A program made the translations under genes and the position numbers. From Candidatus Cloacimonadota bacterium (lineage in GTDB: Bacteria; Cloacimonadota; Cloacimonadia; Cloacimonadales; Cloacimonadaceae): a stretch of 47,441 nt of DNA. Below are positions 24,669 to 27,987 of the stretch, one piece after another. Each line of letters begins with the position of its first letter. The stretch's first letter is position 1. The stretch lies in contig JAJBAV010000022.1 of the NCBI GenBank assembly GCA_020532085.1, forward strand, positions 1-47,441, given 5' to 3'. The notes beneath the pieces were generated by a model. That model was not told the DNA's origin. It saw nothing but the letters and a program-made list of their open reading frames with translations, and searched no databases.

Positions 24669-24941
24669 AGGCTCTCTTTCAAACCAAGGGGTGGAAGTGA
24701 TCAACCTAAAAGCAACCCAGAGGGCGACAGAACCATAGCGAGGGCGCGTAAGCCCCTCGTTGCGCGACAGAACAATGATAAATGAAAATTGCCACCACCC
24801 CTCCCAGGAAACGCACCGCGTTTCGGGCGTGGGGTGCTGGCCTTGATGTTGAGGCATGATATACCCGATGTACGAGGGGTTCCGTCGCTATCATTCTGTC
24901 GCCCTCACGGGCTGTACCCACTTGATTTGAAAGAAAGCCTG
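24669..24941. mobile_element. Palindromic repeat element, copy A (MITE-like, no gene)
   Basis: A 273-bp sequence with long imperfect inverted ends. The left end reads AGGCTCTCTTTCAAACCAAG, then GAGGGCGACAGAACCATAGC, GAGGGCGCG and CCCCTCG. The right end, read on the minus strand, gives AGGCTTTCTTTCAAATCAAG, GAGGGCGACAGAATGATAGC and CCCCTCGTAC in the same order. The left half has a 21-base insertion relative to the right. The centre holds no gene. The motifs recur in copies B (25310-26007) and C (27655-27987). Confidence 0.7.
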
Positions 24942-25006
24942 TTTCAATGGTTCTAATTCTTCTAACATTTACCCAGTCTTCAACCCTCACGGAGCGTTTT
25001 AATCTA

Positions 25007-25248
25007 TCTAATTTTTTAATAGTTCCCTGTCTCGGAGCCGGAGCAAGGAGGGCGAAGGCCATAAGTGACATCATAAAAGCATAACACTATATATATCATA
25101 TATATACCTATATAAATACTAATACCTACTATATTAGTATATATAATATCTATATAGTATATATATCAGTATCTTACATGCCCCTCATCCTGGTCCTGGA
25201 TGGAAATGAGATAAAGGTGGTGAGACAGGGAACTATTAAAAAATTAGA
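25007..25248. repeat. 242-bp AT-rich palindrome with perfect 27-bp arms
   Basis: The left arm (25007-25033, starting TCTAATTTTTTAATAG) and right arm (25222-25248, ending CTATTAAAAAATTAGA) are exact reverse complements over 27 bases. They enclose 188 bases, of which 25083-25170 is almost pure A/T with overlapping TATATA/TACTA palindromes that could extrude as a cruciform. No gene is present. It lies between repeat copies A and B and shares no clear sequence with them, so it looks like a separate element. Confidence 0.8.
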
Positions 25249-25309
25249 ATAATCAAAAATGGTGGCCGCCGATTCGCGCTGCCGATTCCGGTATGGGGTT
25301 AACAAATCA

Positions 25310-26007
25310 GCCTCGCAGAGGCGAAATAACGATAGCGAGGGTGTGCAGTGAGCGCAGCGAACGGAACCCCTCGTAAGAAGCCCAATACAATATTTGAGCC
25401 CCTCGAGGGCGAAAACAACTTTATCTTGACATCCATCCCCCCCTCAACAATCATACGAAAAAACACATTCAGAGGAGAACTTATGCCCGCCTCATATGCC
25501 CATTTAACCGTCCATATCGTTTTCTCCACCCACAACCACAAAACCTGGCTGAAAACCTGAAATCCGCGACGCCATGCACTCCTACCTGGCCGCGATCATC
25601 AACCGAACAGGCGGCAAGGCGATCAAGGTGGGCGGAACCCAAGACCACATTCACATCCTCTGTTTATTGCCTAAAAATCTCTCACCCGGCGAATTCATGG
25701 CCAAGATCAAGGCGAATTCCAGCAAATGGATCCGCGAAAAACATTTTCCAGACTTCCATTGGCAGGATGGTTACGGGTTGTTTTCGGTGAGTAAATCCGA
25801 CCTGAACAAGGTGAAGGATTACATCGAAAACCAATTGGAACACCATTACAACCTGAGCGCCTGGGAGGAATTTGACAGACTTCTGGCACGACACCAGGAG
25901 GAGTGAGCTTCTGAGCCCACAAGGGGCTCGGGGGTCGTCGTCGTTGCGTTTCGAGGGGCTTCGCTGCGCTCCGCGCCCTCGCTATCGTTCTGCCGCCTCT
26001 GCGAGGC
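25310..26007 (+). mobile_element. IS200-like element flanked by inverted repeats (copy B)
   Basis: A 698-bp unit, a usual IS200 length. The left end (25310 to about 25373) and right end (about 25943-26007, read on minus) share GCCTCGCAGAGGCG, AACGATAGCGAGGG, GAGCGCAGCGAA and CCCCTCG in order. The inner parts carry GAGCCCCTCGAGGGCG on the left and GAGCCCACAAGGGGCTC on the right. The core holds a Y1 transposase gene with a frameshift. TTGACA at 25426-25431, 52 bases before its start, may be its promoter. The ATAGCGAGGG/CCCCTCG motif is shared with copies A and C, so this is the only copy in the window that carries the protein. Confidence 0.72.
25483..25906 (+). pseudogene. tnpA: IS200-like Y1 (HUH) transposase, frameshifted
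   Basis: The single-strand transposase of IS200/IS605-type elements, or a related REP-associated transposase. The first 25 codons (MPASYAHLTVHIVFSTHNHKTW) start at ATG 25483 behind AGAGGAG and stop at 25558. The rest continues in the +1 frame, reading EIRDAMHSYLAAI. Removing one A from the run at 25552-25555 restores a single frame of about 140 residues. The HUH metal motif is DHIHIL, and the likely catalytic tyrosine lies in VKDYIENQLEHH. IFSTHN, SSKWIREK and FHWQDGYGLFSVS are family landmarks. The C-terminus stops after LLARHQEE, short of the usual aromatic tail. A sequencing error in the A-run is possible. Confidence 0.85.
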
Positions 26008-26017
26008 TTTGCCTGGA

Positions 26018-26148
26018 TGCCAGCCTGCGCTGGCATGACGTGGCGCTGGCGTAGAGTGAAGAAAGAGCATAGACGACAGCATATAAAACCCCCAATCATC
26101 TTCCACATCCCCTGGCGTCCATGCCCACTGCGTTCGCTGGACGCCAGG
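26018..26148. repeat. Two hairpins downstream of the IS200-like element
   Basis: TGCCAGC (26018-26024) pairs with GCTGGCA (26029-26035). CCTGGCGTCC (26111-26120) pairs exactly with GGACGCCAGG (26139-26148). They fill part of the 400-base gene-free stretch between the transposase element and the SUMF1-type gene; nothing else recognisable is present before the promoter at 26331. Confidence 0.55.
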
Positions 26149-26330
26149 CTTCTGCGCTGGCTTGAAGTCACCATTTCCGTGGCTTGGCTTCAGCACACAA
26201 GGCCTGTTGACATAATTCAACAAAGCTATGGTTGGCTGAACCGCCTTTCAGCGGGCAAATCAAAATCGTTATCATCCCCCGAGAAGTTTATCCGCGGATG
26301 GAAAAAATAACGGAAACTCGGATTTTATGC

Positions 26331-26359
26331 TTGACAGGATAGACCCGAGCCTGTACCAA
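26331..26359 (+). promoter_or_regulatory. Putative promoter of the SUMF1-type gene
   Basis: TTGACA (26331-26336), a 17-base spacer and TACCAA (26354-26359) stand 50 bases before the start codon. A second AT-rich box, TTATTATATAAC, follows near 26371-26382 and could be an alternative -10. Confidence 0.4.
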
Positions 26360-26408
26360 TCCAAGAGTCCTTATTATATAACGGATAAGAACTTACATGG
26401 GAGGAAAC

Positions 26409-27401
26409 ATGAAATGGAGCATACTGGTCGCCGCGCTGCTGTTGATATTCGCAGCCGGTCCGGGGCTGAGCGCCAGCGGTAATGATCTACAGCTGGTCGA
26501 GGCCGTGGAGGATCTGAGCATTTCCACAAACGGAAGCGATGTGACCCTAAGCTGGAGCCCGGTTGCTGAGGCCACAGAATACAAGGTTTATTCGTCCGTC
26601 TCCGCGGAGGGGGAGTTTTCGGAAGACGCGAACGGGGTTTTCTCCGGCGCCAGCTGGACCGCTCTGGCATCTGGATCCCGCCGCTTTTATCAGGTGACGG
26701 CCCTGATTGATGTCGCACCAGAAGGATTCGCTTTTGTGGAAGGCGGCACCATCAATCCTCCTGATGGCCATTACACCGGCGGCTTGAGCGTGGGAAGTTT
26801 TCATATCGGCAAATATGAAGTCACCAACTTTGAATGGAACGCGGTGATGGGCTACGGTGAACCTGACACCTATCCCCATGGCGATACCTGGTGCTACATC
26901 ATTGTATATTGCAACCAGAGAAGCATACAGGAGGGCCTGTCCCCATGTTATTCACACACCACCTATGGCACTGATCCCGATGACTGGCCTCCTTGGTTCT
27001 TGATCTATGGACAGGACCACAATATTAGCTGTGACTGGTCTGCCACAGGTTACAGGCTGCCCAGCGACGCGGAATGGGAATTCGCGGCCCGGGGCGGTTT
27101 GAACACCAATGGCTGCACGTACAGCGGCAGCAACGATCTGAACGAGGTAGGCTGGTATGTTGAAAACAGCGGATTTGCTGTTCATCAAGTGGGGCAGCTC
27201 GCGCCCAACGAACTGGGGGCCTTTGACATGAGCGGCAACTTTTGGGAATGGTGCTGGGATGAATTTGGAACCAATGCCCGCGTGATCCGCGGCGGTTATT
27301 TTGGCAACAGCCACACCTCCTGCGCCGTCTCGTTCCGCTCCGGCGCTGGTCCTGGAAAATACGGCAACATTGGCTTCCGCGTCTGCAGGACTTCCCCCTG
27401 A
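26409..27401 (+). CDS. Secreted SUMF1/FGE-sulfatase-fold protein with fibronectin III-like domain
   Basis: A 330-residue exported protein: signal peptide about 1-22 (LLLIFAAGPGLSA), a fibronectin III-like domain (about 32-100, VTLSWSPVAEATEYKVY) and a SUMF1-type domain (about 105-330). The latter shows FVEGGTI, FHIGKYEVTNFEWNAVMG, GYRLPSDAEWEFAARGG, FDMSGNFWEWCWD, RVIRGG and IGFRVCR. SUMF1 folds include the formylglycine-generating enzyme but most bacterial secreted members have other or unknown roles; I see no clear pair of active-site cysteines for sulfatase activation. The ATG at 26409 has a strong GGGAGG; an in-frame ATG at 26397 overlaps that site. It is monocistronic, between mobile repeats, with its own promoter. 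Confidence 0.85.
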   Translation: MKWSILVAALLLIFAAGPGLSASGNDLQLVEAVEDLSISTNGSDVTLSWSPVAEATEYKVYSSVSAEGEFSEDANGVFSGASWTALASGSRRFYQVTALIDVAPEGFAFVEGGTINPPDGHYTGGLSVGSFHIGKYEVTNFEWNAVMGYGEPDTYPHGDTWCYIIVYCNQRSIQEGLSPCYSHTTYGTDPDDWPPWFLIYGQDHNISCDWSATGYRLPSDAEWEFAARGGLNTNGCTYSGSNDLNEVGWYVENSGFAVHQVGQLAPNELGAFDMSGNFWEWCWDEFGTNARVIRGGYFGNSHTSCAVSFRSGAGPGKYGNIGFRVCRTSP

Positions 27402-27545
27402 TTTTTGCCTTTCACTAACTAAGAGGATGACACAAACCCGGGCCTCAGAATGGCTCAAGGGGAACCCCAGATGGCGCTGCCTTGCCGCCAGGGTGTGCCC
27501 TTGATCTCATGCTAGGTCCGGGTCCCGGCTTTGCCGGCGCAAGCC

Positions 27546-27580
27546 CTCACGGGCGGTTGAACCACTTGGTTCAGGGAGCA
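27546..27580. repeat. Degenerate end fragment of the palindromic repeat family
   Basis: GCCCTCACGGGC followed by TTGAACCACTTGGTTCA resembles the right end of copy A (GCCCTCACGGGC, CCCACTTGATTTGAAAG). The rest of 27402-27654 shows nothing recognisable. Confidence 0.4.
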
Positions 27581-27654
27581 AAATCCAAGGGGCAGATTCT
27601 ACAAATTCACAGATTCCCCGCTGGGCAGCTCCTGATATTTAACCGTATGAAACA

Positions 27655-27987
27655 AAGGCTCTCATTCAAACTGGGTGGGTTGGCCCTGAGGGCGACAGAC
27701 TATAGCGAGGGTGCGAAGTGACCGGGGTCACTGCGGAGGGCGCAGCGATGCCGTGGGGTGGGAACGGAACCCCTCGTATGAGGAATAAACGAAGGATCGA
27801 ACCCCTTGCGGGCGACAGAACCCCGGAGATCGATTTCTGTGGCCCACAAGGGCTCTCATTTTGTTGTTGCTCTTGTACGAGGGGCTTCGTTCCGCTGCTC
27901 ACCATCGCTATGATCTGTCGCCCTCAGGGCTGGTCTGTCAAGCTACTCATCGATTTAGCCACTCGGTAAGGAAGTGATTTGAAATAG
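27655..27987. mobile_element. Palindromic repeat element, copy C (MITE-like, no gene)
   Basis: The left end reads AAGGCTCTCATTCAAAC, GAGGGCGACAGACTATAGC, GAGGGTGCG and GGAACCCCTCGTA. The right end on minus gives TATTTCAAATCACTTCC, then GAGGGCGACAGATCATAGC, ATGGTGAGCAG and AAGCCCCTCGTAC. The inner right part, GGCCCACAAGGGCTC, matches the inner right part of copy B. No coding sequence lies inside. The right outer end carries about 40 extra bases before its TTTCAAA terminus. Confidence 0.7.

Follow-up and report, generated by a model that had tools for sequence, protein, structure and literature searches.

The stretch of DNA analysed here, which we call the window, is the 47,441-nucleotide contig C22 of G000, a genome of 2.81 Mb with a completeness of 99%. 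Candidatus Cloacimonadota is the source of protein relatives that are 84-86% identical. The window contains three related palindromic copies, A, B and C, only one of which encloses a gene, and this raises the question of what these copies are and whether the enzyme encoded in B is the one that dispersed them. An earlier note, made from the sequence alone, had likened the arrangement to REP sequences with their associated transposase, or to MITEs mobilised in trans. The results presented below lead us to assign a probability of roughly 0.85 to the reading that A, B and C are members of a non-autonomous, REPIN-like population and that B is the decayed REPtron of a subclass 1.2 TnpA, with the mechanism proposed below included in that estimate. 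The features concerned are collected in Table 1.

Table 1. Positions of the repeat elements, their REP units and the transposase gene in the window.
Feature	Position	Strand	Description
Copy A	24669..24940	+	Gene-free REPIN/MITE-like element; 24-nt inverted ends (GGCTCTCTTTCAAACCGAGTGGGT consensus); no counterpart at G009 orthologous site
Left REP unit of A	24716..24759	+	Hairpin 1 - GACAGAACC - ATAG - hairpin 2 (CGAGGG..CCCCTCG)
Right REP unit of A	24871..24912	-	Inverted; one stem change (CGACGG)
Copy B	25309-26008		Encloses Y1 gene
Left REP unit of B	25309..25374	+	Inverted-arm comparison, unit pattern
Y1 gene in B	25483..25906	+	TnpAY1 subclass 1.2; frameshift near 25556; PF01797 match
Right REP unit of B	25952..26008	-	Inverted
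Copy C	27655..27987	+	Gene-free REPIN/MITE-like element; right outer end diverged; no counterpart at G009 orthologous site
Left REP unit of C	27684..27779	+	ATAGCGAGGG..CCCCTCG, long loop
Right REP unit of C	27874..27930	-	Inverted

The inverted arms of the three copies measure 25 nt (88%) in A, with additional outer arms of 23 nt (87%), 40 nt (85%) in B and 36 nt (86%) in C, and the elements A and C are 270-330 bp in size. That the copies share motifs at inverted ends is borne out by these arms. The further claim that the same ordered motifs stand at both ends of all three requires qualification: GGGCGACAG, ATAGCGAGGG and CCCCTCG are present in this order at the left ends of A and C, whereas variants are found at the right ends of A (ATAGCGACGG) and C (ATAGCGATGG) and in B, which has GGCGAAATA and GGCGGCAGA in the place of GGGCGACAG. 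The intervals between the copies are occupied by other features. Between A and B (24997-25258) is an AT-rich repeat of another family, whose inverted arms are 37 nt long and whose TATATA-rich core is conserved; many copies of this core are present in G000 and in several relatives of the genus, and the outer arms differ in G009. Between B and C (26397-27401) lies a gene resembling those for sulfatase-modifying factors (PF03781); in G005, G006 and G009 the gene on the glycosylase side adjoins the tRNA-side region directly, without the PF03781 gene.

A strict pattern, in which ATAGCGAGGG is followed after 5-35 nt by CCCCTCG, is matched 43 times in the 2.81-Mb genome, and not once when the pattern is reversed as a control, so the shared motifs cannot be ascribed to chance. 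A BLAST search of G000 with copy A returned 66 matches, and the gene-free copies with shared ends that were to be sought in the host are thus present in number. In the repeat unit of G000 a small hairpin, either GCCTCGCAGAGGC or AGCCCGTGAGGGC, is separated by about 10 nt from ATAG and a second hairpin of the form CGAGGG-loop-CCCTCG. Units are located near both ends of an element, inverted relative to each other, and they occur in G000 as inverted pairs, as singles and in one tandem array. In this array (L014, C1:196527-196821) four REP units are spaced about 90 bp apart, and it is missing at the orthologous place in G009. As expected of REPINs, gene-free inverted REP pairs are dispersed between genes throughout G000. 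Inspection of 56 element ends from G000 and its relatives reveals that they align sharply on the one 24-nt arm and that the flanks beyond this arm differ. Directly outside the arm, a run of at least four A or T residues is present at 20 of the 56 ends, compared with a background of 7.5%.

Comparison with related genomes is informative about mobility. In the sister species G009, which is 80-88% identical at this locus, the neighbouring genes are kept and A, B and C are missing. Counterparts are also missing there for two further elements of G000, C15:49610-49906, which adjoins a terminator-like A tract, and C2:133522-133824. Orthologous sites without the elements are in line with the empty-site alleles to which the earlier note had looked for support. 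Some element loci are common to the two genomes (L024 with L207). Absence at orthologous sites is compatible with movement of REPINs in trans. At this degree of identity the junctions are blurred and a target duplication could not be recognised at the G009 sites, so that the ends and any changes in the target can be placed only approximately. Repeats are also found apart from an enzyme: G004 has eight strict units and no Y1 gene at all, and G008 has 26 units of the sibling family, none of them next to a cognate gene. Repeats in genomes devoid of a related Y1 transposase had been named as grounds for rejecting the association, and these two genomes go part of the way. REPs that outlast their transposase are known in E. 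coli (PMC3733652), and by this analogy we read the repeats of G004 and G008 as orphaned.

The gene in B matches PF01797 with an E value of 6e-18, so that its description as a Y1 transposase stands. It is not an intact gene, however, since the frameshift splits it and leaves only the C-terminal frame (25574-25906) undisturbed; B therefore appears to be a relic, unless the frameshift is an assembly error. The predicted protein has DHIH as its HUH motif, WQ (in HWQD) and YIENQLEHH, and these agree with the motifs DH[IV]H, WQ and YxxxQxxHH of TnpAY1 subclass 1.2 (Quentin et al. 2018, PMC6006769), as do a length of about 148 aa and a low intragenomic copy number and identity. We classify it on these motifs as a Y1 single-strand transposase of subclass 1.2, of the IS200 class. 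The fold of an AlphaFold2 model (mean pLDDT 89) matches the IS608 and ISDra2 transposases and the TnpAREP structure 4er8, superposing more tightly on the last (3.3 A over 121 columns), with the swapping of the Tyr helix left undecided by a monomer prediction. No intact cognate transposase for the window family was seen in G000. An intact ortholog, L259, is present in G010; it is 67% identical to the B protein and has DHVH as its HUH motif. The flanks of L259 carry the same outer arm as B, a small hairpin of the GCCC type and ATAG, and hairpin 2 has a diverged stem (CGGTGGG..CCCCCCG). The geometry of the repeat is that of the window unit despite the altered hairpin, and the intact transposase sharing the ends of the family, another expectation of the earlier note, can thus be pointed to with the reservation of the diverged stem. 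The ATAG-hairpin unit co-diverges with its cognate Y1 protein. The repeats were probably moved by the enzyme of which B holds a broken copy.

Subclass 1.2 is listed without REPs in Table 1 of PMC6006769, and that survey places its members mostly in Cyanobacteria and Bacteroidetes. G000 holds three members of this subclass, 41-43% identical to one another, and the two siblings of the B gene each have their own repeat type: L002 is accompanied by repeats of the form GCCCCGCAGGGGC-10 nt-AG-CCCAGGG..CCCTGGG and L001 by CGGTGGCTTCAGCCACCG palindromes. Further types occur in relatives of the genus. The same genome contains four class 2 Y1 genes (L004-L007, on C2, C23 and C30) with the motif YxxxNP and with repeats in the flanks of each, and at least seven Y1 genes with repeats therefore coexist in 2.8 Mb.

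To place the window in a wider context, 80 relatives of the protein were fetched from Planctomycetota, Bacteroidota, Verrucomicrobiota, Acidobacteriota, Calditrichota and others, and 78 of these possess Y---Q--HH. The two 400-bp flanks of each gene were compared, a score of at least 20 being taken as a shared repeat. A repeat common to both flanks was found at 59 of the 73 testable loci and in none of 133 control window pairs; for the most part it is the two-hairpin unit. The range of subclass 1.2 is much wider than in the published survey and most members are flanked by REP-like units, so that the reported, though not defining, lack of REPs does not hold for most of these loci. With a unit detector (hairpin 1, 7-14 nt, AG, hairpin 2) that already requires stem pairing for detection, the unit density was 2.64 per kb within 450 bp of the genes and 0.33 per kb beyond 900 bp. 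Near the genes the distance from hairpin to AG peaks at 10 nt (40 loci), and there is no such peak far away. A narrower detector (8-12 nt) placed a two-hairpin unit near 60 of the 80 loci, compared with 42 of 251 far windows of equal size. Trinucleotide enrichment after hairpins is uninformative because the orientation of a hairpin is ambiguous, and the spacing test was preferred for this reason. The guide-like tetranucleotide before hairpin 2 is ATAG in the window and NTAG, NCAG or NAAG elsewhere, AG alone being constant. The detector is weaker in the AT-rich Cloacimonadota, where it was positive at 17 of 31 subclass 1.2 genes, close to the 5 of 10 for class 2 genes, and where some repeat types have hairpin 1 and TAG but lack a clear hairpin 2. 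The subclass 1.2 genes L286, L289, L297, L093 and L097 are accompanied by units with one hairpin, for example GTTCCGTTAGGAAC, in which a TAG- or TAA-like triplet comes about 10 nt later and a clear second hairpin is lacking; these are possibly a second type of unit.

An Rfam scan connects these repeats with a catalogued family. Acido-Lenti-1 (RF01687) matches the minus strand of all three L002 repeats, the sibling family at this locus scoring 44.5 bits. Its model places an 8-bp hairpin, CUA, a spacer and a 5-bp hairpin in this order, which is how the two-hairpin unit reads in reverse complement. Apart from one tRNA it is the only family to reach gathering level in the 80 loci, with 24 matches in nine loci; 19 of these lie within 500 bp of a subclass 1.2 gene, that is, in 76 of the 449 kb. 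Among 49 genomes selected for a subclass 1.2 gene, 44 have matches (30 above the cut-off), with up to 98 scored copies that are often in inverted pairs; none of 14 control genomes has a match. Matches are present in 39 of 118 Cloacimonadota genomes and adjoin a Y1 gene in six (G000, G009, G010, G023, G077 and G087). The co-occurrence with class 1 Y1 genes at the level of whole Cloacimonadota genomes, counted by eye, is weak (about 27 of 39 versus 39 of 79), because repeats outlive genes and subclass 1.2 genes have several repeat types, and adjacency is the stronger test. The GAGGG units of the window family do not match RF01687 even at an E value of 1, so the link runs through the sibling family and the other phyla. 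Weinberg et al. 2010 (PMC2864571) listed Acido-Lenti-1 as a non-regulatory RNA candidate, and Rfam carries it as an sRNA of unknown function with no link to a transposase. The units might accordingly be structured non-coding RNAs, or 3' elements of mRNAs, whose place beside a transposase is incidental or regulatory. The Rfam class of the sibling unit would agree with this, and units that lie between genes and beside terminators are in many cases probably transcribed. A pairing-asymmetry test of RNA against DNA drew mis-registered arms or chance matches and was left uncounted. We nevertheless regard an RNA identity as improbable, since the units are arranged as inverted pairs or in tandem within sharply bounded elements, sister genomes lack them at the orthologous positions, and Y1 genes stand between units of opposite orientation.

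The 24-nt terminal inverted repeats (GGCTCTCTTTCAAACC ends) and a size of 270-300 bp are also features of ordinary MITEs, and A and C could in principle have been moved through these ends by a DDE transposon, the Y1 gene having hitchhiked between two of them. This is very improbable, given that a target-site duplication is not recognisable at the diverged sites, that the outer arm of the window elements also flanks the intact Y1 gene in G010, and that the inner ATAG-hairpin unit is conserved and changes together with the Y1 protein. Despite a common Y1 HUH fold, IS608 and ISDra2 as the closest solved relatives, hairpin ends and guide bases 5' of the hairpin, a derivation of the elements by decay from classical IS200/IS605 insertions is hardly credible. 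The latter are autonomous and multi-copy with subterminal hairpins in the same orientation, whereas here the ends are inverted, the copies form a numerous, gene-free population of inverted pairs, each Y1 gene of G000 is present once and shares about 42% identity with the others, and the Y motif is that of subclass 1.2 and not 1.1.

The window is therefore best described as holding a putative REPtron/REPIN-like system of an IS200-class transposase, with predicted cleavage and mobility in trans. Its recognition unit, inverted near both ends, would lead from hairpin 1 through roughly 10 nt of spacer and (N)(T/C/A)AG to hairpin 2. TnpA would bind the hairpins while the DNA is single-stranded, presumably on the lagging strand. 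The AG 5' of hairpin 2 would supply the last two guide bases, as in the GTAG of REPs, and the guide would direct cleavage to a C|T step of the outer arm (GGCTCTCTTTC). The 5'-phosphotyrosine link would then be formed by Tyr113 (L259 numbering), and the element, copied or moved, would enter A/T-rich sites that adjoin genes and terminators. Cleavage at C|T in TnpAREP systems takes place 5' or 3' of the hairpin with GTAG as the guide, and in two such systems that were tested the last two guide bases weigh most for cleavage (PMC8266576); by analogy, a similar guide logic is suggested by the invariant AG that precedes hairpin 2, together with a CT-rich outer arm.

The resemblance to the RAYT/TnpAREP REPtrons and REPINs of E. 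coli, Pseudomonas and Stenotrophomonas is extensive: a Y1 HUH protein is encoded between two inverted hairpin repeats that are dispersed in the genome, a tetranucleotide ending in AG stands directly 5' of a hairpin, inverted pairs are scattered, and each gene has its own repeat family. The earlier comparison with REPtrons was in this respect well founded. There are also differences. Class 2 proteins have NP after the catalytic Tyr where QxxHH is found here, the window-type unit has an extra upstream hairpin at a fixed distance, NTAG or NCAG serves as the guide instead of the strict GT[AG]G at the foot of the REP hairpin, and the window elements are bounded by a defined outer inverted end of 24 nt. 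We consider it likely that there is a second, IS200-class kind of REPtron, apart from the class 2 RAYTs and widespread in Planctomycetota, Bacteroidota, Verrucomicrobiota, Acidobacteriota, Cloacimonadota and others, that it employs a two-hairpin, AG-guided repeat, and that the Acido-Lenti-1 "RNA" is its DNA substrate and not a non-coding RNA. In the open-access literature, the suggestion that such a system may be undescribed in lineages outside the known RAYTs looks right, the protein belonging to a subclass listed as free of REPs. An orphan transposase subclass reported without repeats is thereby given a function-level context, with concrete DNA substrates and cleavage sites predicted, and the results suggest that partnerships of REPs with transposases arose from IS200-class enzymes as well as from class 2. 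They also offer an explanation for an Rfam family of which little was said to be known as late as 2026, in a paper that proposed Acido-Lenti-1 as a regulator of proteases (PMC13298647). RF01687 has 48 matches in a Tannerellaceae genome that carries a subclass 1.2 gene (L119), and the Acido-Lenti-1 sites beside the Tannerella KLIKK protease genes may for this reason be mobile repeats and not regulatory RNAs.
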